Below, in pieces: positions 113 to 58,996 of a DNA stretch of 64,000 nucleotides. Below the pieces are notes generated by a model. The model had not been told where the DNA came from and searched no databases. It saw nothing but the letters and a program-made list of their open reading frames with translations. The stretch lies in NCBI GenBank assembly GCA_030710605.1, contig CP092872.1, forward strand, positions 5,196,019 to 5,260,018, in the 5' to 3' direction. The first letter of the stretch is position 1, and each line of letters starts with the position of its first letter. The position numbers and the translations under genes were made by a program. The DNA comes from Cordylochernes scorpioides. Lineage: Eukaryota > Arthropoda > Arachnida > Pseudoscorpiones > Chernetidae.

Positions 113-216
113 GAACATTCGCGGTATAATTTCAATTTTCGTTTTACAATCATCAGCCGCGTTATATTGTATTTTAAATGTTACTTTAAGTATTAGTTAC
201 GAACGGAAAAATACGT

Positions 217-436
217 CCAGGGTAGCCGAGTGGACAAGGCACCTGCCCGGTAAGCAGAAGGGTGTGGTTTCGATTTTCGCCCCTGGACACTTTTTATTTT
301 TCCGTTCGCCATTACTCTTCATGTTTCACCTTTCCATACCTCATCCTCAAAGTTAGAAATGTCGCTATTTCTCTTTGAAAATAAATTTCGATTTTTATAA
401 AAGAAACATTCGCGGTATAATTTCAATAAGTTATAT
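217..436 (+). mobile_element. SINE-A, tRNA-derived short interspersed element
   Basis: The head (217-290) reads like a tRNA gene: a GTAGCCGAGTGG D-arm/A-box region, an anticodon-like stem CTGC/GCAG, and a degraded B-box around TTTCGATTTTCGCC. It is followed by a unique body with TTTTTATTTTTCCGTTCG and a tail rich in T and A. The same head-body order recurs at 58106-58330 and, inverted, at 59365-59600. The 24150-24345 copy has lost most of its head. SINEs of this type are transcribed by RNA polymerase III from the internal A and B boxes and are moved by a partner LINE, which cannot be assigned here. Confidence 0.75.
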
Positions 437-10510: not shown

Positions 10511-10730
10511 TAGTGAAACATGATTAATTCTCTGTACTACAAAAAGGCTTCTTACTTGTGCAATGATTCTCTTTAAGTTTCAGAATATAAATAAGACGTA
10601 TAAATAAAGGTCACCTCTTCAGGCAAAGTAGACACTAAAGCTAAGCGACATCTCTTGACCGTCTCCTCAAACTAGCGGACTCAGATAGGTGAAAAATCCA
10701 CAACACCAGCTTTGGCAAACTGAGAAGCGT

Positions 10731-10780
10731 CCACCTAGAGACCATGGTTTCGGGCTAATAACCCTCGTCAGTCTGGGCGG
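10731..10780 (-). ncRNA. Hammerhead ribozyme candidate, complete core
   Basis: Read on the minus strand: stem I strand CCGCCCAGA (10780-10772), core CTGACGA (10771-10765), stem II GGG (10764-10762), loop TTATTAG (10761-10755), CCC (10754-10752), GAAA (10751-10748), self-complementary stem III ACCATGGT (10748-10741), cleavage base C (10740), then stem I partner TCTAGGTGG (10739-10731). Stem I pairs 8 of 9 with one A-C mismatch and one G-U. Every conserved hammerhead base is present and the triplet is GTC. Cleavage would fall between 10740 and 10739. The two-nucleotide loop of stem III implies action as a dimer, as proposed for short-stem-III hammerheads in animal repeats. It sits between the repeat at 10810-11215 and LINE debris at 10256-10510, all on the minus strand. 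Confidence 0.65.
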
Positions 10781-10809
10781 ACTTTATTCCATGAGATCCA
10801 CAATAAAAT

Positions 10810-11215
10810 CTTCACAATCTGCCAGGTGTCGAGTAGTCTTGGGAATATAATACAGTCCATGATGATATAGCAGCTGTTAGGTTTCGAGCATGAGCCTTTG
10901 CCGGTCCCAAACCCGGATGAAAAAGGAGGAGGGGGAGCAGTAACAAGCTCACTAAAAAACCTGGGCTCAGCTGGCCCGGCTGATAGTACTCTGTAAGAGC
11001 TCCCAATCCAGGGAGACAGGATGAGCAGCGTTTGTACTCCATGTTAGGAGTGGCTGTACATGGTGTCTGTTCCTCATGTCAGAGGCAGCCATTTTTTTTT
11101 TGGAGCTAAGTCGGTGGCCTGCCACTGAGTAGTGCTCCCAGGCTTAATGACAAAGACATTCTACCTCACCCAGTAGCCTAATATGATTGAGTGGAGATAA
11201 GAAAGAAGAAGATGA
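10810..11215 (-). repeat. Dispersed GC-rich repeat (family D)
   Basis: Matches 34027-34416 in the opposite orientation, including the stretch that reads MEYKRCSSC, CCCAGGTTTTTTAG, CTCCCCCTCCTCC and the outer GTAGAATG and TCTCCACTCAATCATAT blocks. A 76-codon minus-strand frame runs through it but is broken differently in the other copy, so it is probably the untranslated or 5' part of a retroelement. Confidence 0.6.
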
Positions 11216-11880: not shown

Positions 11881-11962
11881 CTGTTTTTAAAGAGAGAGAG
11901 ATAGAGACGGCTAAACATACTTTATTGACTACTAGTCAATTATGGATGAAAAATAATGATAT

Positions 11963-12157
11963 TGTAGCGTTATTTGTTGTATTGTTTTACATAATTAGGT
12001 TTTGGATTTTGTTTGTGTTTGTTTTGCATGTATTGAGTTAATGATTGGTGTATATGTGTTCGTGTATTCTTTGATTTGGGTAGTCTGCTCGTTGGCAGCA
12101 ATAAACGTTTATCGTTCGATTTATCTACGCCTGTTGCTTGCAATTCTTACCGCCACA
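11963..12157 (+). repeat. 5' LTR of gypsy element
   Basis: 195 bp, starts TGTAGCG and ends CGCCACA. AATAAA occurs near 12100, close to the 3' end, as expected for an R/U5 polyadenylation signal. Confidence 0.95.
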
Positions 12158-12180
12158 AGTGGTGGAGATGCTGGGTACCG
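12158..12180 (+). other. Primer binding site
   Basis: TGGTGGAGATGC begins two to three bases after the LTR. TGG complements the CCA end of a tRNA, and the rest should match its acceptor and T arm. I cannot name the tRNA. Confidence 0.6.
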
Positions 12181-13439
12181 ATACCATCACGGATACCTCT
12201 GTCAGAAGAAGCCGTCGCCTAGAAGGCCTGGAACCACGTTTTGATTTCGACGAAAAGAATAAGCCAATCAGAAAAATGTCAATATCGGCTGGAGTTAACA
12301 CGGGTGTTAATACTTGCAAACATTTGACAAGAAACCCAACTGTGTTTAGCGGCAATGGAACGGAGGATTGTGGCAAATGGATGAAGGATTACGAACGTAT
12401 TGCGAGATCGAACTGCTGGGATGCCACGATGAAATTGGCGAACGCACCATTCTTTTTGGAAGGGACCGCTGGCCAATGGTATGATAACAACGAAGAAGGA
12501 ATGGATTCGTGGGATATGTTTAAGGAGATGTTTAGCCGGACATTCGACAATAGCGGTGTCCTTCTCAGACGCGCTAAGGACAACCTTCAGAGTCGAGCTC
12601 AGAAGAGTACAGAATCCTGTGAATCCTATATCCAAGACGTTCTGAGCTTGTGTAGGCAGGTGAATCCCGATATGAGTAAAGAAGAGAAAGTGGCACATCT
12701 AATGAAAGGTGTGGTAGAAGATGTCTATCAGATTATCTTGATAAAGGAAATTGATACTGTTGAAGCCTTTGTCGATTGGTGCCGAAAGGTGGAGGCTTGC
12801 AAGCAGCGACGCATCGGGAAACCGAAGTTTGAGCGACTCCCTAACGTCGCAAGTATAGAGCAACCAAACTCCTCGTCCCTGGAAGATCTGATTCGACGAA
12901 TCGTGAGAGAAGAAATTAAAAGTGCCCTACATTCCGAGCCTATAGTGCCGGAGGTGAACTCCCTGAAGAAAATGATTCATGAAGAGGTTGAGAGAAATCT
13001 GACCCCAATTGCGCAGCAGGGTCCATACTACCAAGAACAACGCCGCCAATTTGAAGGACCGGCGAAACCACCCCCGTATTACCAGCAGCAAAGTCCTACA
13101 AGGCTGACAACTGCCCGAAGAAAGACTGACGAATGGAGGACGGTGGATAATATTCCCGTTTGTTTCCAATGCGGACGCCCGGGTCACGTCGCCAGGTACT
13201 GCCGAGAGCGGCGAGGGATGATGGATCGACAGCCACCGGGGAGATACCACCCTGTCCAGAACGGCCCGCGAACGATCTATAATAGCAATGAAACCCCAGG
13301 CCGCGCAAGTTACCGAAGCCCGTCGCCCTATCCAGGTCGTGGCCGATCCCCAGCTGAACGTCGCCCCTCGATAGCCGACGATCTGGCCGATCACCTTATC
13401 GTGAGAAAAACTAGAGCAAGCGCCCTTCGCTGGAGGTAA
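12168..13439 (+). CDS. gag: Gag polyprotein of gypsy element
   Basis: Structural protein that builds the virus-like particle. I take the ATG at 12168 (423 codons), because the frame upstream lies in the LTR and primer site. After a short basic leader comes a retrotransposon gag/capsid domain (about residues 45-225) with the typical tryptophans (GTAGQWYDN, DSWDMFKEMF). A linker rich in Q and P precedes one zinc knuckle, CFQCGRPGHVARYC (C-x2-C-x4-H-x4-C, about nt 13159-13203), which binds RNA. The C-terminus is basic and arginine-rich. The stop TAA at 13437-13439 overlaps the open pol frame. No disruptions are visible. Confidence 0.93.
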   Translation: MLGTDTITDTSVRRSRRLEGLEPRFDFDEKNKPIRKMSISAGVNTGVNTCKHLTRNPTVFSGNGTEDCGKWMKDYERIARSNCWDATMKLANAPFFLEGTAGQWYDNNEEGMDSWDMFKEMFSRTFDNSGVLLRRAKDNLQSRAQKSTESCESYIQDVLSLCRQVNPDMSKEEKVAHLMKGVVEDVYQIILIKEIDTVEAFVDWCRKVEACKQRRIGKPKFERLPNVASIEQPNSSSLEDLIRRIVREEIKSALHSEPIVPEVNSLKKMIHEEVERNLTPIAQQGPYYQEQRRQFEGPAKPPPYYQQQSPTRLTTARRKTDEWRTVDNIPVCFQCGRPGHVARYCRERRGMMDRQPPGRYHPVQNGPRTIYNSNETPGRASYRSPSPYPGRGRSPAERRPSIADDLADHLIVRKTRASALRWR

Positions 13440-16400
13440 GGTCGCTGAGGAGATTATAAATCCTCCGCCGCTCATAGCCGCTAAACTATCACAGAATATA
13501 GTTGACGTTACTATTGACGATAAAACTTTTCCTGCCCTTGTCGACAGCGGCGCTTCATTTTCGGTTATTTCGGACCACTTTAGACAACAACACAAAAAGA
13601 CTATGTTCAGTGACGCTGGCATGACACTTAGAGTTGCCGACGGGAAATATATCGTTTCCAGGGGCCGATGTACGTTACGTTTAGAAATAAACGGATTGGT
13701 ACAGCCGTTTGAATTCATTGTTTTACCAAGTTGTAGCCACGACATCATTCTCGGTTGGGACTTTCTGGAGGCGTCAAGAGCTATAATCGATTGTGGTAGC
13801 GCCGAGATTCTGTTAGAAAAAGCAGAACTACCAGAGGATTCTTCGAGCATATTCCAAACTGTGGCCGCCGACGATAGCTTTATAATCCCCGCTGGATCAA
13901 CCAAGCAGATAAACGTAATCAGCGAAGCTATACTCGGTGTGAGTGATGTCGTAATGGAGCCTTCGAGGATCCTCTTTCTAGAACGTGATCTGATGGTTCC
14001 CGCCTCGATCTTCGCTGTCCAGCATGGAAAAGGGAGAATTTGGATAACCAACATCGGCACATGTGATCGAACTGTCCCCAAAGGAATGTGTATTGGAGAG
14101 ATACAGGTACTGGAAGAGGGTCAGCTGGCGGTCATCGGTGATGCTTCGGACACCAATCGGCAGGGGATTCTTGGACAAGAAAACTCTCCAAACATTGCCT
14201 CGATGATAAGCCCTGATCTATCCATGCTTGAAAGGACCAGGATATGTTCGATACTTGGGAGTTTCAGCGGCTTATTTGAATTTAATAAGTTTCCGTCTAA
14301 TCTGACGAGCACAGCCAAGCACAAGATAAATACAGAGGACCATCCCCCGATTAAACGCCGTCCATATCGAGTGTCGCAGGTCGAACGTCAAACCATTCAG
14401 AATGAGGTCGACAAAATGTTGAAAGGAGGTATAGTTCAGCTTTCCGAAAGTCCTTGGTCCTCTCCTGTGGTATTAGTGAAAAAGAAAAATGGTAGTTGGC
14501 GTTTCTGTGTCGATTACAGACACCTGAATAAAATCACAAAAAAGGATGTATATCCACTACCAAGGATTGACGATACACTCGATTGCTTAAGAGGGGCGAG
14601 TTATTATTCTTCCATGGACCTCCGTTCTGGTTACTGGCAGATTGAGGTGGATGAGGCAGATCGCGAAAAGACCGCCTTCATTACACCCGACGGATTGTAC
14701 GAGTTCAAAGTTATGCCTTTCGGGCTGTGTAACGCCCCAGCGACATTTGAAAGAATGATGGATACCTTGCTGAGGGGGTTGAAGTGGTCAATGTGCCTTT
14801 GCTATCTGGACGATATTATTGTGTTTTCACCCACCTTTGACGAACATGTTCGACGCCTTGAATTAGTTCTCAGGTGTCTCTCAAAGGCTGGACTTGTGTT
14901 AAATCCAGACAAGTGCTTGTTCGGAACAAAACGACTAAGCATTTTTGGGCATCTGGTGGATGGAGAGGGCGTGCACCCCGACCCGGGTAAAGTTGATGCT
15001 ATGTCCAAATTCCCTACTCCCAAATCCCTTACTGATGTAAGAAGTTTCATTGGAATGTGCTCATATTATCGTCGTTTCATTAAGAATTTTGCTCAAAAAG
15101 CTGAACCACTACACAGGTTGTTGAGAAAGGACACCAGATTCGAATGGGGACCAGATCAACGGCAGGCCTATGAATCCTTGAAGTTGGCACTCGCGTCGGA
15201 ACCCGTCTTGGCCCACTTTGACGAAAAGTATGCGACCGAACTGCACACCGACGCCAGTGGGTTTGGAATTGGTGCGGTTTTGGTCCAGGTCCAGGGAGGA
15301 AGTGAAAAACCGATTGGATATGCATCAAGAACGCTGTCAACAGCTGAAAAAAATTATTCAACAACGGAGCGGGAGTGTCTTGCCGCGATTTGGGCGATCG
15401 GCAAGTTCCGTCCATACCTATTTGGTCGCTCGTTTACAATTGTGACGGATCATCACTCGCTCTGTTGGCTTTCGGGACTGAAGGATCCGTCGGGAAGACT
15501 GGCCAGGTGGGCCTTAAGACTTCAGGAGTACAATGTGAACGTGGTATATAAAAACGGCAGAAAACATCAAGATGCCGATTGTCTCTCACGCAATCCAATC
15601 GAAGCGAATAACCCAGGGGAATCCGGAGATGACATACCAACATTAGCTGCTTTAATTGATATCGTCGCGGAACAGCGGAAAGATCCGGTAATTGTGAGAA
15701 TATCGGAGGAATGTTCGAGGAACGATCAAAACCGCTTCAAAATAATCAATGGAGCTCTTTACAAGCGGAATTTCGACCCAGTGGGGCAACCGTGGCTATT
15801 GGTGATCCCCAGGCATTTGCGCCCTGACGTCCTCAGAAGTCTCCACGATAATCCAACTGCCGGTCATTTAGGGTTGGCTAAAACCCACGATAGAATTAGG
15901 AGGAAGTATTTTTGGCCAGGTCTTCTGAGGAGCATAAGAAAATATGTCGGTCACTGTAGGGAGTGCCAGCGTCGTAAACATGCTCCCTTGCGACCGCCCG
16001 GATTGCTGCAACCGATACCACCCACCTCTGTTCCGTTCCAAAGAGTCGGAATTGATCTCCTCGGAAGATTCCCAATATCCCATTTAGGAAATAAATGGAT
16101 AATAGTTTGCACAGACTATCTGACGCGATACGCTATCACCCGAGCCTTACCATCGGCAGACGCTCAGCAAGTGGCCAAGTTCGTCCTGGAGGACGTAGTG
16201 CTTAAACATGGAGCACCACGAGAAATAATTACTGACCGGGGTAGGGTTTTTCAGTCTAAACTAATATCCGAGCTGACGGGACTTTGCTCTTCGGCTCAGA
16301 GATTTACCACGGCGTACCATCCTCAGACGAATGGTCTCACTGAGAGACTTAATAAAACCCTGGCCGACATGATGTCAATGTATGTGGACGTCGAACAAAA

Positions 16401-16926
16401 GGAATGGGACGTTATTCTTCCGTTCATCACGTTTGCTTACAATACGGCGAAGCAGGACACCACCGGATTCACCCCATTCAGCCTCATCCATGGACGAGAA
16501 GCTGAAACTACGTTGGATACATTGTTTCCTCTTTTAAAAGATGAAGATCAAGAGGACTATAATCGAGAGATAGTGACTCGAGCAGAGGAGACGCGACAAT
16601 TGGCTCGGCTACATACACTGAGAGCGCAAGAGGGCAATAAACGAGTCTACGACGCCAAACATCGAGAAGTGAGCTATCAGCCAGGCGATAAAGTATGGAT
16701 ATTTATACCCGTTCGGAAAATAGGGATATCCGAAAAATTAATAAAACGATATTTCGGCCCTTATAGGGTGACGAGACGCATTTCGGATGTGACGTACGAA
16801 GTTGAAAGTCTAGACACTACTAACCGCCGTCGTAAGCCAAAGGAAATTGTGCACGTAGTGAGAATGAAGAACTACCGTGACCGGGACGAACAACTGGACC
16901 TACCCGAGGATGAGCCTGCCGTCTGA
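13405..16926 (+). CDS. pol: Pol polyprotein of gypsy element
   Basis: The open frame runs from 13405, just after an in-frame TGA at 13402, and overlaps gag by 35 nt in the +1 frame, so expression probably needs a +1 frameshift (or equivalent) in 13405-13439. There is no good ATG before the protease. Domains in order: retropepsin with VDSGAS (Asp codon 13543), reverse transcriptase (VDYRHLNK, MPFGLCNAP, YLDD at 14803-14814), RNase H (TDASG, Asp codon near 15248), and integrase with HHCC zinc finger (H-x-H then CREC). The D,D35E triad is at 16114, 16234 and 16342. The tail carries a GPYRV-type C-terminal segment but no chromodomain that I can see. About 1170 codons, the usual size. All catalytic residues are intact. 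Confidence 0.96.
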   Translation, partial: EKLEQAPFAGGKVAEEIINPPPLIAAKLSQNIVDVTIDDKTFPALVDSGASFSVISDHFRQQHKKTMFSDAGMTLRVADGKYIVSRGRCTLRLEINGLVQPFEFIVLPSCSHDIILGWDFLEASRAIIDCGSAEILLEKAELPEDSSSIFQTVAADDSFIIPAGSTKQINVISEAILGVSDVVMEPSRILFLERDLMVPASIFAVQHGKGRIWITNIGTCDRTVPKGMCIGEIQVLEEGQLAVIGDASDTNRQGILGQENSPNIASMISPDLSMLERTRICSILGSFSGLFEFNKFPSNLTSTAKHKINTEDHPPIKRRPYRVSQVERQTIQNEVDKMLKGGIVQLSESPWSSPVVLVKKKNGSWRFCVDYRHLNKITKKDVYPLPRIDDTLDCLRGASYYSSMDLRSGYWQIEVDEADREKTAFITPDGLYEFKVMPFGLCNAPATFERMMDTLLRGLKWSMCLCYLDDIIVFSPTFDEHVRRLELVLRCLSKAGLVLNPDKCLFGTKRLSIFGHLVDGEGVHPDPGKVDAMSKFPTPKSLTDVRSFIGMCSYYRRFIKNFAQKAEPLHRLLRKDTRFEWGPDQRQAYESLKLALASEPVLAHFDEKYATELHTDASGFGIGAVLVQVQGGSEKPIGYASRTLSTAEKNYSTTERECLAAIWAIGKFRPYLFGRSFTIVTDHHSLCWLSGLKDPSGRLARWALRLQEYNVNVVYKNGRKHQDADCLSRNPIEANNPGESGDDIPTLAALIDIVAEQRKDPVIVRISEECSRNDQNRFKIINGALYKRNFDPVGQPWLLVIPRHLRPDVLRSLHDNPTAGHLGLAKTHDRIRRKYFWPGLLRSIRKYVGHCRECQRRKHAPLRPPGLLQPIPPTSVPFQRVGIDLLGRFPISHLGNKWIIVCTDYLTRYAITRALPSADAQQVAKFVLEDVVLKHGAPREIITDRGRVFQSKLISELTGLCSSAQRFTTAYHPQTNGLTERLNKTLADMMSMYVDVEQKEWDVILPFITFAYNTAKQDTTGFTPFSLIHGREAETTLDTLFPLLKDEDQEDYNREIVTRAEETRQLARLHTLRAQEGNKRVYDAKHREVSYQPGDKVWIFIPVRKIGISEKLIKRYFGPYRVTRRISDVTYEVESLDTTNRRRKPKEIVHVVRMKNYRDRDEQLDLPEDEPAV

Positions 16927-16945
16927 CAGCGAGGACGCTGTCCTT

Positions 16946-16961
16946 TTGGAGTGGAGGGCAT
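16946..16961 (+). other. Polypurine tract
   Basis: TTTGGAGTGGAGGGCAT lies directly before the 3' LTR and is purine-rich as expected for plus-strand DNA priming. Confidence 0.7.
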
Positions 16962-17158
16962 TGTAGCGTTATTTGTTGTATTGTTTTACATAATTAGGTT
17001 TTGGATTTTGTTTGTGTTTGTTTTGCATGTATTGAGTTAATGATTGGTGTATATGTGTGTTCGTGTATTCTTTGATTTGGGTAGTCTGCTCGTTGGCAGC
17101 AATAAACGTTTATCGTTCGATTTATCTACGCCTGTTGCTTGCAATTCTTACCGCCACA
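16962..17158 (+). repeat. 3' LTR of gypsy element
   Basis: 197 bp, same ends as the 5' LTR. It has an extra TG in the TGTGTG run near 17055. Confidence 0.95.
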
Positions 17159-17196
17159 ATATAATACAGTGAAATTATGATTGAGGAAAGCTCTAC

Positions 17197-21094: not shown

Positions 21095-21833
21095 CCATAT
21101 ATATATATATATGGCGTTTTGCTGTTTTTATTTTGACGTCATCATTTGTATTCAAACTCAAAATGATAACGTATAAATAAAATCAGCAAAAGAGTAGACT
21201 GTAGACAGCTACGAGAAAAGATTCAGAGGACATAGCCGACGCCCAGGAAGAAGCCCCTTCCGGGATTTCTTAGGCGACCGCTCCCGAGAAAAACACAGCA
21301 GTGTCAGCTCAGAGTGCGATATAGTGTGTCCATCTACGCAGGCCGCTTCTGGCTCTCTCTCTCCTTGTCTCGGTGTTAGGCATCCAAGTTTATATCATGG
21401 TCTCTACCTCTGTTCCGTGAAGTGTCGCCAACCCGCTCGGTGCTAACATCTAGCTTTTGTACCGAAACATCGCATTTTTACTACAAATATGCAAATTTCT
21501 AATCAACCAATGAATCAGATTGATCTTTATATATCTCATTTACTTGTTACTTGGCATATGAGAGAAAGAACTGCAAAATTTGTGTATTATATTATAGTCA
21601 AATACAATGAAGGATATTTATATCTTAAATATTATTTTCTAATAACTATCGCAACAGTCTTTGTTCCAATATATATGGCTAATAATTTTTAACCAGCAAA
21701 ATAAACCTTTTCAAGAAAAATTCAAAACAAGAGGCTCATATATTGAAGAGAGAGAGAGATATTTTACACTTAATATTTAATTTATATTTCGAAACAAATT
21801 ACATTCGACAAGGCAAGACTGTGTTATATAAAT
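21095..21833. other. Unclassified region with GC-rich patch
   Basis: (AT)n near 21101-21112. From 21190 to 21480 the sequence is markedly GC-richer than its surroundings, but no frame or known repeat was recognised. The rest is AT-rich. Confidence 0.4.
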
Positions 21834-22146
21834 ATACTCATCGACAAAACTTAAGGAAGTTGTACCTTTCAGAATGTATATTGGTATTCAGACAATAACT
21901 CTGAAATATATTACAGTGACCTTTATTGAAGACACACGAGATAACCAATATACACTCATAGACAAAACTTAAGAAAGTTGTACCTTTTAGCATGTATATC
22001 GGTATTCAGACAATAATTCTGAAAGATATTACAGTGACCTTTATTGAAGACACACGAGATAACCAAGTGTGTGAACAACCTCTGTCTCCTTCGAAAAAAA
22101 TCAGACAATCGGCTTTCCGCCTTCATAGGTTTTGTCCATGAGTGTA
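21834..22146 (+). repeat. Tandem array of mariner-like terminal repeat, 2 units
   Basis: Units start TACTCATCGACAAAAC / TACACTCATAGACAAAAC at 21834 and 21951. The array is closed by the inverted terminus TTTTGTCCATGAGTGTA ending at 22146. Confidence 0.75.
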
Positions 22147-22169: not shown

Positions 22170-22345
22170 AGAGAGAAAATTGTGAATATTTATATTGATT
22201 TATATAAATGAGAAAACTTCTAATCGTAAATATAGAGGCTGCTTGGCCGGCATTCATATTTCTTGAAAATAAAGATAATTCGGCCAGAAAATCTTTTATC
22301 ACCTCGACGTTTCGACAAAAAGATTTTGTCCTCGTCAGTAGCAAA
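22170..22345 (-). repeat. Small repeat with hammerhead motif
   Basis: Minus strand: hammerhead-like motif (22306-22338), then GGTGATAAAAG, CTGGCCGAATTATC and GCCGGCCAAGCAGCC. A partial relative lies at 33000-33090 (GGCTGGCTGGCCGG). Confidence 0.5.
22306..22338 (-). ncRNA. Hammerhead ribozyme-like motif, good core
   Basis: CTGACGA (22338-22332), one G, stem II GACAAAA/TTTTGTC around TCTT, GAAA (22313-22310), self-complementary ACGT (22310-22307), C at 22306: a GTC triplet. The one extra purine before stem II and the unpaired stem I (GAGGTG against TTGCTA) are departures from a working hammerhead. Confidence 0.45.
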
Positions 22346-22506
22346 CAAAAATTAAAACATTTGACAAGGCGTTAAAAATTATTCTAAGGCTCCAAGGCCG
22401 TTGAAGGGTGAGAACCCAGACAGACAAGGAAGAAAGTTAAATAATAGATTTTAAAAAGTACATTTTCATTGCTGCTATTTGGAAACTAATATCGTTTTTT
22501 TTTTTG

Positions 22507-22800: not shown

Positions 22801-23151
22801 TAATATCCTTGTTAATAGAGACGTATAGGCTTGGTGGAGCATCAAAATAAGATCAAATTAAATTTTTAAGTAAATTTATAAAGAAAGGTCTAGGAACAGG
22901 GCTAATTATAGATTGTAAAAGTGTTGGGTTTTACTTGATAACTGACATGGCGGTTCTTCTATAGCGTTAATTGTGAAAGATTAAATTAATTATATCTTCT
23001 GGTTGATTTATGTGGACTTTTTCTTCCTTCTGCGCATGCGTTGTTTGTTATACTTCTTTAATTTCAAATATTATTTGTTCACAATTTTAATGAAATGATG
23101 AAAGAATGAAGCTGGTAGCCTCCTTACTCAAATTTCTCCAACGATGTAATA

Positions 23152-23657
23152 TACACTCATTGACAAAACTTAAGGAAGTTGTACCTTTTAGCATGTATAT
23201 CGGGATTCAGACAATAACTCTATGAAAGATATTACAGTGAACTTTATTGAAGACACACGAGATAACCAATATACACTCATGGACAAAACTTAAGGAAGTT
23301 GTACCTTTTAACATGTATATCGGGATTCAGACAATAACTCTGTGAAAGATATTACAGTGAACTTTATTAAAGACACACGAGATAACCAATATACACTCAT
23401 GGACAAAACTTAAGGAAGTTATACCTTTCAGCATGTATATCGGGATTGAGACAATACCTCTGAAAGATATTACAGTGACCTCTATTGAAGACACACGAGA
23501 TAACCAATATACACTCATGGACAAAACTTAAGGAAGTTGTACCTTTTAGCATGTATATCGGGATTCAGATAATAACTCTGTGAAATATATTACAGTGAAC
23601 TTTATTAAAGATACACATCAAAGACTTCTACTTCCTTGAGTTTTGTCCATGAGTGTA
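23152..23657 (+). repeat. Tandem array of mariner-like terminal repeat, 4 units
   Basis: Units begin at 23152, 23272, 23392 and 23510 (period 120, 120, 118). The array is closed by the inverted terminus at 23641-23657. Each unit has the terminus TACACTCATGGACAAAACTT followed by about 95 bp ending GAGATAACCAATA. Confidence 0.85.
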
Positions 23658-26339: not shown

Positions 26340-27845
26340 TAATGAATAATTTAAACAATGGTAGATACAAATAAGATCGTTATGACATGATATAAACAAT
26401 GGAAGACACAACTAGTGTTGCTAAGACACATTCAACAATGGCAGATACAACTAGGGTCGCTAGGACACAATGTCAGATACAACTAGGGTCGTTAGGACAC
26501 ATTCAACAATTGCAGATACAACTGGCGTCGCTAGGACACAATGTCAGATACAACTAGGGTCGCTAGGACACATTCAACAATGGCAGATACAACTGGCGTC
26601 GCTAGGACACAATGTCAGATACAACTAGGGTCGCTAGGACACATTCAACAATTGCAGATACAACTGGCGTCGCTAGGACACAATCTCAACAATGTCAGAT
26701 ACAACTAGGGTCGCTAGGACACATTCAACAATGGCAGATACAACTGGCGTCGCTAGGACACAATGTCAGATACAACTAGGGTCGCTAGGACACATTCAAC
26801 AATGGCAGATACAACTGGCGTCGCTAGGACACAATGTCAGATACAACTAGGGTCGCTAGGACACATTCAACAATTGCAGATACAACTGGCGTCGCTAGGA
26901 CACAATCTCAACAATGTCAGATACAACTAGGGTCGCTAGGACACATTCAACAATGGCAGATACAACTGGCGTCGCTAGGACACAATGTCAGATACAACTA
27001 GGGTCGCTAGGACACATTCAACAATTGCAGATACAACTGGCGTCGCTAGGACACAATCTCAACAAGAGCATATACAAATAGTGTCGGTAAGACACAATCC
27101 CAACAATGGCAGATGCAACTAGGGTCGCTAGGACACAATATCAACAATGGCAGATACAACAAGGGTCGCTAGGACACAATCTCAACAATGACAGATACAA
27201 CTAGGGTCGCTAGGACACATTCAACAATTGCAGATACAACTGGCGTCGCTAGGACACAATCTCAACAAGAGCATATACAAATAGTGTCGGTAAGACACAA
27301 TCCCAACAATGGCAGATACAACTAGAGTCGCTAGGACACAATATCAACAATGGCAGATACAACAAGGGTCGCTAGGACACAATCTCAACAATGGCAGATA
27401 CAACAAGAGTCGCTAGGACACAATCTCAACAATGGCAGATACAACTAGGGTCGCTAGGACACAATATAAAAAATGGCAGATGCAACTAGGGTCGCTAGGA
27501 CACAATCTCAACAATGGCAGATACAACTAGGGTCGCTAGGACACAATCTCAACAATGGCAGATACAACTAGGGTCGCTAGGACACAATCCCAACAATGGC
27601 AGATACAACTAGGGTCGCTAGGACACAATCCCAACAATGGCAGATACAGCTAAGGTCGCTAGGACACAATCTCAACAATGACAGGTACAACTAGGGTCGC
27701 TAGGACACAATCCCAACAATGACAGATACAGCTAGGGTCGCTAGGACACACTCCCAACAATGTTAGGTACAACTAGGGTCGCTAGGACACAATCCCAACA
27801 ATGGCAGATACAGCTTGGGTCGCTAGGACACATTTAACAATGAAA
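26340..27845. repeat. Minisatellite, 41-bp basic unit
   Basis: The consensus unit contains GGCAGATACAACTAGGGTCG and CTAGGACACAATCTCAACAAT. Between 26471 and about 27060 it forms a higher-order pattern with anchor spacing 71, 71, 80, 71, 71, 80, 71. From 27090 on, single units of about 41 bp dominate, with point variants. No frame is maintained. Confidence 0.9.
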
Positions 27846-36957: not shown

Positions 36958-37193
36958 CCCTAGCACACGTGGTACAGGCCATGATAATCATGGTGGGTAG
37001 TTAGCGACTGCTTTTACTGTAAGCGCACCACATGTTTACACATCAGTTCGACTTTTGTACTTACAAATATTTCAGTGCACCGTTTGGTTACTTACACTCT
37101 CTAGTGGGGTTGGACTTTTGCAAGAATCGGAGAACCATTGAAGCATTTTCTTTATTAGAAAAAAAATGCCCAATGCTGGATTCGATCCCGGGT
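36958..37193 (-). mobile_element. SINE-B with expanded head
   Basis: Body and B-box (plus strand GGATTCGATCCCGGGTC, 37178-37193) are intact. The head continues into the tandem array at 37194-38067. Confidence 0.8.
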
Positions 37194-38067
37194 CATAACG
37201 GTCCAAAACTAAAGGTTTAGACCATCCTTCCACCGACCTCATAACGGTCCAAAACTAAAGGTTTAGACCATCCTTCCACCGACCTCATAACGGTCGAAAA
37301 CCAAAGGTTTAGACCATCCTTCCACCGACCTCATAACGGTCCAAAACTAAAGGTTTAGACCATCCTTCCACCGACCTCATAACGGTCCAAAACTAAAGGT
37401 TTAGACCATCCTTCCACCGACCTCATAACGGTCCAAAACTAAAGGTTTAGACCATCCTTCCACCGACCTCATAACGGTCCAAAACTAAAGGTTTAGACCA
37501 TCCTTCCACCGACCTCATAACGGTCCAAAACTAAAGGTTTAGACCATCCTTCCACCGACCTCATAACGGTCCAAAACTAAAGGTTTAGACCATCCTTCCA
37601 CCGACCTCATAACGGTCCAAAACTAAAGGTTTAGATCATCCTTCCACCGACCTCATAACGGTCGAAAACCAAAGGTTTAGACCATCCTTCCACCGACCTC
37701 ATAACGGTCGAAAACCAAAGGTTTAGACCATCCTTCCACCGACCTCATAACGGTCCAAAACTAAAGGTTTAGACCATCCTTCCACCGACCTCATAACGGT
37801 CGAAAACCAAAGGTTTAGACCATCCTTCCACCGACCTCATAACGGTCCAAAACTAAAGGTTTAGACCATCCTTCCACCGACCTCATAACGGTCCAAAACT
37901 AAAGGTTTAGACCATCCTTCCACCGACCTCATAACGGTCGAAAACCAAAGGTTTAGACCATCCTTCCACCGACCTCATAACGGTCCAAAACTAAAGGTTT
38001 AGACCATCCTTCCACCGACCTCATAACGGTCGAAAACCAAAGGTTTAGACCATCCTTCCACCGACCC
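37194..38067 (-). repeat. 46-bp tandem array made from the SINE-B head
   Basis: Exactly 19 units of 46 bp. Each is the A-box half of SINE-B (minus strand GGTCGGTGGAAGGATGGTCT then AAACC). Two unit types occur: 13 with GGTCCAAAACTAAAGG and 6 with GGTCGAAAACCAAAGG, the latter interspersed at units 3, 11, 12, 14, 17 and 19. The last unit (ending GACCCCC at 38069) is joined to the original SINE 5' edge. Confidence 0.95.
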
Positions 38068-44335: not shown

Positions 44336-44642
44336 AGTTTATATATACACTCATGTAGTTTTGACAGATTCAGATAAAAGCCAACAACCTCTATACCATG
44401 GTTTCAACTATGGCTCTCATCAGTACAGGGACAGATTGTATTTCATAACATTCAACAAGAGGGGTCATGAAATCTATCAAATTATTCAAAAAATTGGTGA
44501 AATGTCGAATTCTGTGTATTCACCATTACGTTCTGTTATAGGATGATTACAGAATGCTTTGTTTAGAAGCATTTTTGAAGGGAGATGTTTCTTTCGGTAT
44601 AAGTATACCATCAATATACAATTTTTCGTTATATCTAACTAA

Positions 44643-45170: not shown

Positions 45171-45806
45171 TCAAAATTTTATACTTTTCTTTTTGTCTAC
45201 AAATTCATCAAGCTGTCCAATACGACCAAATCTATTTTCCCTAAAATCCCGGAAAATTGGGCACTCCAGAAGTAGATGTCTCGCGTCTTGAATTTCACCT
45301 CCGCAGAAGCATCCTGGTTCCTTCACGGCGCCGATAGTTGCCAAAAATTTCCCAAAATTGCCATGATCTGTAATGAATTGGATATTATAAAAATTTGGAC
45401 GGAAAAATCTTGGAATTCCTAATACGAAAAAGCTTCTGAAAATTTCATTAGTGTTCTCAAAAATTTCATTCATTTTTGCGTGTAAGAATGATTTGACTAT
45501 ACTTGGAGCATGGGGTTCGTAAGTAATTAGATCTTCAATGGACATTTGAGCTAGATCAAATTTGATTATTCTGGATTCTATATAATCTGTTAGGAGTGGA
45601 ATTTTTGCCAAGCTATGCACACAGTTTGATGAAGTGGTTTTGTATGCTCTAACTGCCCATAAAATGATCTGGTACTGCATGGAGTTCAGTTTTTGTTTAC
45701 AACGATTGTTTAAATATTTGAACCAAATTTCAGAACCGTATGTAAGTACAGGCCTAATGATTGTTTTGAATAAAGTTAACCTCTTTTCAGTGTCTAAACC
45801 CCACAT
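45171..45806 (-). pseudogene. LINE ORF2 C-terminal part
   Basis: 211-codon frame. It starts in the RT thumb (RPVLTYGSEIW) and ends with the motif CFCGGEIQDARHLLLEC (C-x-C-x8-H-x4-C), which contacts template RNA in related LINEs. No RNase H domain is visible. Confidence 0.8.
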
Positions 45807-45917
45807 ATTGCCACTTAGTGAACATAATAAATTTTTTCATACGTCCTGCCTTACACAGAATATCATTAACATGCGGTGTAAAGTTAACTTTGTTTTTCCA
45901 TTTGTGATTAGAAAATT

Positions 45918-47230
45918 TCATTCCAGAATTTTTACTTGCTTGACCGGCATTATTATATTGTTATTAACCTTAATAGGTATTTTTTGTCTGTTATGTAGGT
46001 ATAGCATATTAGTCTTCTCTGTACTGATCGTTAATTTATTTCTATTACACCATTGGATCACATAATTTAAGGTGTATTCACTTGCGGTTTTTAGTCCTTC
46101 AATAGTCTTATTCCAGCAAATTATTGTAACGTCGTCTGCATAACATATAATATCTGCATTCATTGAATCAAAATTTATCAACAAATCATTTAGCAAAATA
46201 TTCCATAGAAGTGGAGATAAAGGTCCACCCTGTGGACATCCTTTAGTTAGTTTCTTATAAAAAGTTTCTGATTCGTATGTAAATTTCACCTCCCTTTCAT
46301 TATTCAAATAAGATTTTATGATCCGTATTAAATCTGAAGGAACATCATCATTATCCATTCTTTTTATAATAGCAGGCCACCATGCATTGTCGAATGCACC
46401 CGCAATATCTATAGCTATCAAGGAAGTCAATTCTTTTTGTTTATGTTTCAATATAGTTTCTATAATTTTATCCATTCCAGTAATTGTTGATCTAGATTTC
46501 ATAAAACCATGCTGCCTTGAGCTCATTAAATTATTCTCTAAATAATAGTTACTTAATTTATTTTTTATTATATTCTCAAATGTTTTAGATAGATTAGATG
46601 TCAAGGATATAGGTCTATAACTTTTATTTATTTCATAATTCGTTTTGCCTGGTTTTGGAATTATTTTTAAGAATGATTTTTTCCATTCATCCGGATATAT
46701 CCCATTTCTATACATTTATTGAATAATTTATGCAGAATTGGGATTATTTTTATTTTAGCCTGTCTAATCATATTGTTACTAATGTAATCAGGGCCCGGTG
46801 CTTTTTTAATATTTGTTTTTAAAATTGTTTCCTCTATTTCCTTAGATTCGATATAAACACTACTTTTATTTTTATATTTAGGCGTATAATTTCTAATCAA
46901 AATATGATCATCTTTATCCAAACCTCCAATATCATCCTGAAATAGATCGTTCATTAAACTTTTTATTTTGTCGGTCTTTAAATGATCTGGTAAATTATCT
47001 ATTAGTGGTAATCCTAAATTTCTATTTTTCGATCTCAATGACTTGAATATCCTATAAGCATTACCAAATGAGTTATTTGAATGACTTTCTTCTATAAAAA
47101 TTCTCCAACTCGCTCTTTTTGGCCTTTTACTTTTATTTAAATATTTATTTCTCATTGATTTATAGGTCTTTTCAAGGACCTTTCCATGTCGGTAATACAA
47201 ATTTCTAATATAGTGGAAATCGTTTTTCAT
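45918..47230 (-). pseudogene. LINE ORF2 reverse transcriptase
   Basis: Two overlapping frames. 46667-47230 holds the N-terminal region with KKAPGPDYI. 45918-46715 holds YRPISLTSNLSKTFE, AIDIAGAFD (about residue 103), PQGGPLSPLLWN and YADD (about 192-195). Catalytic aspartates are intact, but the domain is split by a frameshift at about 46670-46715. Confidence 0.88.
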
Positions 47231-47339
47231 TTTCTCCAGCTTCCCATCCCACCAGTATGTATTTGTTTTATGATTTCCGCTTCTTGTCTTGACATTAGTG
47301 ACAGATAAGCTGCCTCTTTAATTATTTGTGTGAGAGTCT

Positions 47340-48163
47340 TTACAATGTTGTCAATATCTTGATGTTTGACGCGTGGTTTATCATGGTGATAATATTATCT
47401 ACGTCTTGTATTGCTATTTTTTCGGTAAATGTTTTCCAATCAGCATCTTTTTCTATAAATTTCCATGTTGAGTTTTGAACTGTCCTTTGCCTGTTAAAAT
47501 TGTGATAAATGTCAAAGGTTATTGCTACGTGATCTGAAATGTGCGTCAATATAGTCGTCTTCCAGTTTTGTACCAAACCTATTGATTTTTGTTTGAAATC
47601 GTAAGATCTATAAAGCTAGAATTTCGGCAGGTGGGTATCTTAAGATTATGAATAAATAGGTTATGTTCATCTATGATGGAGTGAATTTGAAACCATTGGA
47701 GTTTGTTGTCGGATCAAACCAGACTGGGTGTCTAGAATTAAAGGTCACCACATAGTATAATAGGTTGTTGATTGTAGGTCTCCAGAAGCTCTTGGATAAA
47801 TTTTCTATGAGTGTCATTGAATCTATGTGGATGTATATAAAAGTTTGCGATAATAGTATTTGATTTTGCTGAATTTAAAGAAGTGGTTGTACAAAAGGAG
47901 TTTGTGAATTTATTGATTTTATTAAATTTTAAACTCTTATTCATAAAGATCGTTGCAGTATAAATTTGTTCATCTGTCGTTGAAAGCACTATTTGAGATT
48001 CCAAATCGAAAATTACATCTCTATCAATCAGATAAGGTTCCTGTATTAGGATGATATCTGGTGGGTTGTCTTTTATAGAAGCTTGAAGCTCATTCAGTGC
48101 CAAGATACTTTTTCTTACATTTTGTTGTAAACATTTAATTCCTTTTCCCTGCATGATATTCAA
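47340..48163 (-). pseudogene. LINE ORF2 endonuclease
   Basis: 48163-47738 begins CLQQNVRKS and has IQEPYL (catalytic Glu) and ends in ILCGDL. The NSRHPVW segment follows in another frame, and SDHVAITF is in 47340-47576. These are the ordered motifs of apurinic-like LINE endonucleases, in three frames. Confidence 0.8.
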
Positions 48164-48214
48164 ACTAAATAAACAAAAATCTTAGCTGCGAAATTTGCCT
48201 AATTGTCGGTTGGA

Positions 48215-49175
48215 TCATATCTCGTTCGTTGGATAATTCTGTCTATCTGTATTTTGTATAGAGGGACAGTCCGAGGAATTAGCTCTATGATTCGGCGAGT
48301 TTCTAAATTTAGGATGTTTTAGACAGTTATAACAATTGCAAATTTTTGAACAGTCATGAATTCCTTGCGCGCCGCATAATTTGCATATCTCGACGTTAGT
48401 ACAATCGGCCAATTTATGGTTGGGATTAAATTGAAGGCATTTCTGACATTGTTTTACCAGAATCTTATCTTCCACAAAACAGCGTTCAAAGTCAGTATAT
48501 AATTTATTATTCATATTTTTAAGGATTCGGTAAACCTTTGGAGAAACCCTAAGAACTATGTTGTGGTGGGGCTTATTCGATTTCATGCTAAACAAAACAT
48601 GGATATCATTTTCCATTTCGTTCAATTCAGGGTTCATACTGCAGATTGTTTTAGTAAAATTAGCGGTTTCTGTAAGTTTATTAACATTTTTGACTATTAC
48701 TGTTAGGATCTCTTGGTTTGGGGATAAAAATTTTGCTGATATTTGCGAGTTCCTCTGCCCCTGCCTAACTCATCATTTAGAGATTCCATGTCTGATTCTG
48801 TAGGGGTCTTTATTATTACAGATTTCCTAGCATTTATAATTTTGTTAATCTTTATTTTTTTTCCTTCGTCCCTAAGCTTTTTAACTTTGCCTGATATAGT
48901 TTGATACATTTTTGTATTATCTTCCACATTTATAGGTGTTGCCACTATTGTGAACTCCTTATGTAAATTTTGTTTTTTTTTATGTAATCTTGTGATGTTT
49001 CTGTACGAGCTACTTGAGCATATGTTGGAGTTGTTTTGACTAATTCATCTTGGATCCCTTTCAGTTTTGGTCCATAACATCTGTAATTGTTGTTTTCATT
49101 AGTTCCAATATATCTTGGTTATTTATTTCTTTTAAAGTTGAAATACCATCCTGGTGAAATGTTAAAAATACATGC
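48215..49175 (-). pseudogene. LINE ORF1 (gag-like)
   Basis: Frames 48945-48703 and 48637-48215 carry the basic N-terminal part and three cysteine clusters (CQKCLQFNPNHKLADC, ICKLCGAQGIHDC, CNCYNC). Weak continuation upstream to about 49175 (PTYAQVARTETS) in another frame. An RNA-binding chaperone in intact relatives. Confidence 0.75.
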
Positions 49176-49440: not shown

Positions 49441-49897
49441 TCATGGACCTCATGGACAAAACTTAAGTAAGTTGTAGTTTTTATTATGTATATTAGGATT
49501 CAAACAATAACTCTGAAAGATATTACAGTGACCTTTATTGAAGACACACGAGATAACCAATATACATTCATAGACAAAACATAAGGAAGTTTTAACTTTT
49601 AGCATGTATATCGAGATTCAAACAATAACTCTGAAAGATATTACAGTGACCTTTATTGAAGACACACGAGATAACCAATATACATTCATAGACAAAACAT
49701 AAGGAAGTTTTAACTTTTAGCATGTATATCGAGATTCAAACAATAACTCTGAAAGATATTACAGTGACCTTTATTGAAGACACACGAGATAACCAAGTGT
49801 GAAAAAAATTGTCCCCGTGTCCCTAAAAAAAAAAAAAAAATAATCGACTGGCGACATCAAAGAATTTCTACTTCTTCAAGTTTTGTCCATGAGTGTA
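49441..49897 (+). repeat. Array of mariner-like terminal repeat, 3 units
   Basis: Units at about 49441, 49560 and 49680, closed by CAAGTTTTGTCCATGAGTGTA ending 49897. Units 2 and 3 share private changes (GACAAAACATAAGG), indicating recent unit duplication. Confidence 0.8.
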
Positions 49898-58504: not shown

Positions 58505-58996
58505 GAAGGAGATACAGAGGTTGTCACACTTTGTTATCTCGTATGTCTTCAATGAAGGTCACTGTGATATCGTTCAGAGTTATTGTATGAATCCCGATAT
58601 ACATGCGAAAAAGTACAACTTCTTAAGTTTTGTCCATGAGTGTATATATGTTATCTCGTGTGTCTTCAATAAAGGTCACTGTAATATCTTTCAGTTATTG
58701 TCTGAATCCCGATATACATGCTGAAAGGTAAAACTTTCTTAAGTTTTGTCCATGAGAGTGTATATTGTTATCTTTTATGTCTTCAATGAAGGTCGCTGTA
58801 TTATCGTTCAGAGTTATTGTATAATCCCGATATACATGGGAAAAGGTACAACTTCCTTAAGTTTTGTCCATGAGTGTATATTGATTATCTCATGTGTCTT
58901 CAATAAAGGTCACTGTAATATCTTTCAGAGTAATTGTTTAAATCCCGATATATATACTAAAAGAACAACTTCCTTAAGTTTTGTTCATGAATGTAT
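58505..58996 (-). repeat. Array of mariner-like terminal repeat, 4 units
   Basis: Units in reverse orientation end with TTTTGTCCATGAGTGTA-like termini near 58644, 58763, 58879 and 58996. No opposite terminus at the left. Confidence 0.8.

Follow-up and report, generated by a model that had tools for sequence, protein, structure and literature searches.

Which kind of element carries the putatively self-cleaving RNA motif found at this locus of the pseudoscorpion Cordylochernes scorpioides, and which machinery put it there? The motif lies on the minus strand of the window, by which we mean the whole stretch of 64,000 nucleotides that was analysed, and a preliminary description had presented it as a hammerhead ribozyme candidate in a repeat that was not obviously newt satellite 2, a Penelope-like element, or a retrozyme. 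Here, the motif is dissected, its relatives are followed through the genome, and the way in which they are inserted is compared with that of Penelope-like elements (PLEs) of the same genome.

Anatomy of the hammerhead motif

The sequence at 10782–10729 (minus strand) is confirmed as a type I hammerhead motif, with cleavage as a prediction (Table 1). It has the CUGANGA and GAAA cores, an NUH cleavage triplet (GTC), and three stems, of which stem I is open. Stem I pairs at 10 of 11 positions (10782–10772 with 10739–10729), with one C.A mismatch. One stem I base is missing from the window copy, which lacks the T of GTCCGCCCTAGA, the 5' strand with a bulged C that most of the listed relatives retain. 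Following established hammerhead numbering, we take position 10740 to be C17, so that cleavage is predicted just where the preliminary description had put it. Its placement of a complete type I hammerhead here also stands, as sequence, pattern, and descriptor agree on the core, the three stems, and the GTC triplet. In contrast, its view that no hairpin can form from stem III needs correction, since an A-U and a C-G pair can close around a CAUG tetraloop, a two-pair arrangement described as similar to that of invertebrate hammerheads (PMC7229834). The same stem III is retained in most listed relatives, and a few read CTATGG, CATGTT, or similar, in a list whose pattern demanded GAAAC and GT.

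Table 1. Positions in the window of the ribozyme parts, the retrozyme copy that holds them, and a PLE end used for comparison
Feature	Position	Strand	Basis
Entire type I hammerhead ribozyme motif, stem I in full	10729..10782	-	sequence, pattern, descriptor scan
Stem I, 5' strand GTCCGCCCAGA	10772..10782	-	comparison with relatives
Conserved hammerhead core CTGACGA	10765..10771	-	sequence, pattern
Stem II/loop GGGTTATTAGCCC, GGG/CCC then T.G and T-A	10752..10764	-	sequence, descriptor
Conserved hammerhead GAAA	10748..10751	-	sequence, pattern
Stem III ACCATGGT: in cis 2 pairs and CAUG tetraloop, or between two molecules an 8-nt self-complementary duplex	10741..10748	-	sequence
Predicted cleavage site, after C17 (C17 = 10740)	10739..10740	-	hammerhead numbering
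Stem I, 3' strand TCTAGGTGGAC	10729..10739	-	sequence, descriptor
Retrozyme copy, single arm, 5'-truncated	10606..10824, may reach ~10590 and ~10841	-	blastn with 319-nt unit of L003
Canonical PLE 3' end, minimal PLE hammerhead (core from 22338), full tail ending TTTACGATT	22222..22378	-	comparison element

Two kinds of scan had been proposed for the motif, and they gave opposite results. A descriptor consisting of the core, a stem II of at least 3 pairs, a stem III of at least 2 pairs, and a stem I of at least 7/11 pairs with the first 3 contiguous matched the whole window at this one place alone. Its strict form (stem I at least 9/11) had no match in 300 first-order-Markov windows of equal size, and the form without the stem I requirement had 192 matches over the same simulated windows. 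Rfam models, in turn, returned no hammerhead at the window copy, either at the gathering threshold or at E ≤ 5 to 10, and none at E ≤ 5 in two other loci that hold intact relatives (L056 and L021). As the models also miss intact relatives, the Rfam negative says little about the window copy.

The retrozyme copy and its surroundings

By blastn, the sequence around the motif shares about 84% identity with a 319-nt repeat unit taken from another locus (L003). Counting the first base 3' of the cleavage site as phase 1, the window copy spans phase ~225, through the ribozyme, to ~133. No second arm of this copy was found, and a possible 8-bp duplication around it, TTATATTC (minus strand), was read by eye and is not significant. 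What the window holds is a single degraded copy of a short mobile element of which the genome has many.

Several other repeats share the window. A Ty3/gypsy element (11961–17159, plus strand) with a long Pol frame (13405–16926) starts 1.1 kb from the retrozyme piece, and its LTRs of ~198 bp (11961–12158 and 16960–17159, 99% identical) do not take in the retrozyme copy. A Twister-P1-like motif (34414–34360, minus strand; 50.1 bits, E 3.5e-8) scores below the gathering score of 67.2; the repeat holding it has another, decayed copy close to the retrozyme piece (~10884–10937, plus strand, 88% identical). According to a review, RTE retrotransposons carry twisters at their 5' end (PMC7761336). A hammerhead-like core, CTGATGAGAGCCATAGTTGAAACCATGGTATA, at 44423–44392 (minus strand) shares GAAACCATGGT with the motif described above and has no convincing stem I; it is possibly a decayed relative or due to chance, and the 319-nt unit had no blastn match at this place. 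A tandem repeat of ~118 bp, apparently the same by visual comparison of the units, recurs at 21832–22066, 23148–23616, 49450–49796, and 58531–58996, once inverted, and minisatellites of 41 and 46 bp occupy 26395–27842 and 37193–38066. Finally, two similar tRNA-like stretches (216–288, plus strand, and 59586–59515, minus strand), matched by Rfam and not by ARAGORN, are possibly the heads of a tRNA-derived SINE.

A retrozyme family of high copy number

The exact 25-nt ribozyme core occurs at least 11,410 times in the genome searched, which comprises 2.62 Gb on 24 contigs, and was counted as two variants with C or T at one stem II position (10,969 and 441, respectively); reversed-pattern controls for these 25-mers gave none genome-wide. 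The copies occur in both orientations in tandem units of ~319 nt and are dispersed over many contigs. Such units fall within the 150–450-bp tandem repeats with a type I hammerhead by which metazoan non-LTR retrozymes are recognised, and by its sequence we classify the element as a new family of metazoan retrozyme, a known kind of element. The host repeat is thus of retrozyme type, contrary to the earlier impression that it was not obviously so. The preliminary description had nevertheless pointed in the right direction in naming retrozymes and PLEs as relevant relatives, and the genomic search that it proposed did recover tandem relatives with the ribozyme pairing kept.

The ribozyme stretch is the least variable part of the unit, with a mean minor-base frequency of 0.049 compared to 0.067–0.096 elsewhere, as measured on the 154 of 232 unit pieces other than the search anchor. 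Among complete non-anchor ribozyme stretches, 17/46 are identical. A unit of 319 nt leaves little room for a gene; it cannot hold a reverse transcriptase/GIY-YIG frame, so that an element of this size may insert like a PLE without being an autonomous one. An apparent tendency of the 5'-most unit to carry the T variant was set aside, because the query itself carried T, the 4% variant, and full-length matching gave first units an advantage. Some arms, few in number, have at least three units, and there this query bias does not wholly account for the pattern.

Two fixed 3' ends and head-to-head arms

The layout of the insertions was examined in two sets of loci. Similarity searching gave 38 loci, of which five were dropped (L009, the same place as L003, and L012, L016, L022, and L025, near-identical to L011, L015, L015, and L023, respectively), leaving a first set of 33 in which L028 and L030 overlap. 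As these had been selected by similarity, the first 20 places in the list of exact cores, as they came, were used as a second set. Opposite arms, arranged head to head, are present in 37 of the 53 loci (23/33 and 14/20, respectively). Furthermore, opposite-strand neighbours within 500 nt of each other were head-to-head in 8/8 cases among 100 listed exact-core places.

Where both outer (3') ends are readable, one arm stops at each of two fixed points 36 nt apart in 30/32 loci. The first point lies near phase 141 (134–155 by BLAST) and the second near 177 (172–181); for some sequence variants BLAST breaks off at 125–130, and the end was then read from the printed flank. In the first set, 21 two-armed loci have readable ends, the second arm of L018 is cut short, L033 runs off the locus, and 10 loci are single-orientation. 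One end of each kind is found in 20 of these 21; the exception, L013, is composite and has five pieces. Two further loci are composite as well, namely L026 and L035, and both of the pairs contained in L035 conform to the pattern of one end of each kind. In the second set, both ends could be read in 11 of the 14 two-armed loci, and 10 of the 11 have one end of each kind, L068 being the exception; the second arm is cut short in L065, L066, and L067, and six loci are one-armed (L054, L055, L058, L059, L063, and L069).

The insertions begin on the inside at a point that varies and run out to an end that does not. Arm length and inner junction differ among loci, and some arms contain several tandem units. 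Overlaps of 1–5 bases are frequent at the inner junctions, and 11–14 unmatched bases separate the arms in L002, L008, and L015. Both the head-to-head inverted copies and the 36-nt tail on one of the two ends correspond to PLE-type integration, for which a tail of 30–40 nt is characteristic. A stem at the first end (CGGGAG/CTCCCG) is 88–97% paired but nearly invariant; for a structured stem around the two ends no covariation support was obtained, and RNAalifold did not choose CGGGAG/CTCCCG.

Target sites and common source of the arms

Target duplications were analysed at 29 loci (19 of the first set and 10 of the second). Clear duplications of 11–14 bp around the whole pair, outside plain (AT)n, are found in seven of them (L002, L005, L007, L008, L057, L062, and L064), in keeping with retrozyme-type duplications, which exceed 4 bp when present. 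Left and right flanks share a string of at least 9 nt at 20/29 loci, compared to 23% of 812 mismatched left–right combinations, but many of these 20 are set in (AT)n, from which a duplication is indistinguishable, and prove little by themselves. The shared string measures just 4–6 nt at L024, L026, L031, L034, L035, and L052 and 7 nt at L053, L060, and L071; in the composites L026 and L035, the ends compared may come from different insertions. A run of (AT)4+ lies within 30 nt of 9/28 retrozyme ends of the second set, a count that left out the ends of L054 and L068 and cut-short arms.

The two arms of a locus resemble each other about as closely as units within one arm do. Mean identity of unit pieces is 0.937 between arms (95 comparisons), 0.931 within an arm (124), and 0.884 between different loci (13,502), and the between-arm mean exceeds the mean of the same locus to other loci in 22/23 loci. 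It lies above the locus's own 95th percentile to others in 5/23 loci only. The likeness of the arms means that both copy one RNA or one subfamily, and falls short of proof that they copy a single molecule.

Penelope-like elements of the same genome

A GIY-YIG search of the genome, in which 150 of 17,015 candidates were scored, gave 146 matches. A canonical PLE, with RVT_1 followed by GIY-YIG, shows the same geometry as the retrozyme insertions. At L050, it forms a head-to-head pair whose right arm is 36 nt longer than the left. Of 40 scored 3' ends of this PLE across the genome, 39 lie at query position 161–173 (tail end = 165), the 40th being the query's own place, and 6/6 listed opposite-strand partners stop at 129–134 (first site = 129), all head-to-head; the 40 ends are the best-scoring places, which favours long ends, and the partners were not selected for shortness. 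Together with L050 and three further loci (L079, L081, and L088), the two-end layout is found in 10/10 canonical PLE pairs, with the ends 29–36 nt apart. No second arm was detected within 1.5 kb in 8 of the 12 PLE loci that were fetched (L078 is the right arm of L050). Read by eye, the flanks of two canonical PLE pairs show duplications, 11 bp long at L081 and 8 bp at L079, and an (AT)4+ run lies beside 1/16 canonical PLE ends, compared to 9/28 for the retrozyme.

A second type of PLE has an N-terminal GIY-YIG domain, the only one assigned by Pfam, and we take it from this architecture to be Naiad-like. At L049 / L073–L074 (G000:C1:8983000-8996300), it is arranged head-to-head between (AT)n runs, with its ends ~113 nt apart. 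The three opposite-strand neighbours of its 3' end comprise one head-to-head and two tail-to-tail cases, one of the latter a 37-nt AT-rich match. The end spacing of the retrozyme thus fits the canonical PLE and its (AT)n sites fit the PLE with the N-terminal GIY-YIG as candidate partner. Sequence itself does not tie the retrozyme ends to those of PLEs, the best match of the 319-nt unit to 13 GIY-YIG loci having E = 0.56.

Alternative explanations

Since the retrozyme and PLEs share so much of their layout, the units might be solo pseudo-LTRs of an autonomous PLE that bears the same hammerhead. Their layout is that of PLE pseudo-LTRs, and 4 of the 13 GIY-YIG loci compared (L039–L051) have hammerheads of their own. 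However, these ribozymes differ from that of the retrozyme in stem III (mostly GAAAC-GTY) and stem I, and the 319-nt unit is in none of the 13 loci (no significant match, best E = 0.56), although these make up only a small share of the PLE loci in the genome. We therefore regard a solo pseudo-LTR origin as unlikely. Mobilisation by a LINE through ordinary target-primed reverse transcription, with the inverted arms arising from twin priming or self-priming, appears more doubtful still. A fixed 3' end, a variable 5' extent, and target duplications are features of LINEs as well as of these insertions, and the window has frames that look LINE-like by eye (45171–48769) in addition to the repeat with the twister motif. 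It is the head-to-head arms with two 3' ends 36 nt apart, matching the PLEs of the same genome and published PLEs, that argue against a LINE; to our knowledge, two 3' ends with this spacing, one per head-to-head arm, are not expected from LINEs.

Two explanations without retrotransposition are much less probable. The existence of 319-nt tandem units would agree with a plain tandem satellite that spreads by recombination and in which the hammerhead is there by coincidence, but the dispersal of copies on many contigs, the combination of fixed 3' ends with variable inner junctions, and target duplications that enclose whole elements at part of the loci make this very improbable. Even harder to accept is a foldback DNA transposon with the arms as terminal inverted repeats and the ribozyme as a passenger. 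Inverted repeats, some with target duplications, would be expected of such an element, whereas arm lengths and inner junctions that vary by locus, several tandem units in some arms, and ends offset by 36 nt instead of being symmetric would not.

Relation to known systems

The element resembles the metazoan non-LTR retrozymes described by Cervera & de la Pena 2020 (PMC7229834) in its type I hammerhead with a short stem III, its tandem copies, its thousands of copies, and the presence of PLEs in the same genome; its unit of ~319 nt falls within the ~170–400 nt given there. It differs from that description, which is of tandem copies, in its frequent head-to-head arms and two fixed 3' ends. Amphibian satellite-2 and axolotl retrozymes, likened here by their description, are repeats of ~330–350 bp with a short helix III and a tetraloop; helix III of the present element has two pairs, as told of HHR_Amex2 and invertebrate forms, and the axolotl forms are reported to cleave better as dimers (PMC7229834). 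Plant LTR retrozymes are likewise non-autonomous retroelements with a hammerhead (PMC4918200), but their ribozymes are of type III and they have LTRs and 4-bp duplications, according to PMC7229834, which is not the case here.

With PLEs, the retrozyme shares head-to-head arms, an end offset of 30–40 nt, short target duplications, AT-rich targets, and a hammerhead, as far as these are described in PMC3846280 and PMC11167929. Unlike PLEs, its unit has no apparent reading frame, and its stem I is longer and its stem III other than in the minimal PLE hammerhead seen here. The head-to-head arrangement is reported as the commonest among PLE insertions; one inverted pLTR may bear a tail of 31 bp, and duplications of 8–10 bp accompany some insertions (PMC3846280). 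Work on purified PLE protein describes cutting and extension of both strands and two internal RNA start sites that define the tail, with insertion in vitro unaffected by mutation of the hammerhead (PMC11167929). As the same study found the top and bottom strands alike in start site, the rule of one end of each kind is not predicted by that work.

Proposed mode of insertion

We consider it likely, with a probability of roughly 0.8, that the hammerhead serves for self-cleavage in a non-autonomous retrozyme of the metazoan (non-LTR) type and that PLE machinery inserts this retrozyme, using RNA in circular or multimeric form, a reading in which we infer the cleavage, the circularisation, and the use of a PLE protein. 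The ribozyme would cut transcripts of the arrays into monomers, which, judging from published retrozymes, would probably be circularised by a host ligase. A PLE-encoded GIY-YIG/reverse transcriptase protein may then carry such RNA, circular or multimeric, to AT-rich DNA with a staggered cut, where one cDNA would be begun on each cut strand, from the two internal RNA sites at phases ~141 and ~177. Each cDNA could be of variable length, sometimes several units, and the joining of the two head to head would leave a target duplication of ~12 bp around the pair.

A more specific version, in which one PLE complex loads a single RNA circle made by the ribozyme, starts the two cDNAs 36 nt apart, and so writes the circle in both directions, is put forward tentatively, with the odds somewhat against it; animal retrozymes would then be parasites of PLEs. 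The single-RNA part draws on the between-arm likeness, which equals that within arms and goes beyond the 95th percentile in only the 5/23 loci given above.

Implications for animal retrozymes

What is new here is the insertion layout, with its twin fixed ends and head-to-head arms. The literature searched (including PMC11722881), which consisted of published texts with few from subscription journals, yielded no description of a retrozyme with twin ends of the PLE type and no occurrence of four ribozyme-core strings. As Rfam gave no hammerhead even in the two loci scanned that hold intact relatives, surveys that rely on Rfam may count too few elements of this kind. Without settling which autonomous element moves animal retrozymes, earlier authors have named PLEs a strong or likely candidate on the grounds that both have type I hammerheads and tandem copies and occur together (PMC7229834, PMC7761336). 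An idea that previously came from shared features now has structural evidence. Because the twin ends, the head-to-head arms, and the target duplications are the physical trace of an enzyme, the question of which machinery moves retrozymes becomes testable.
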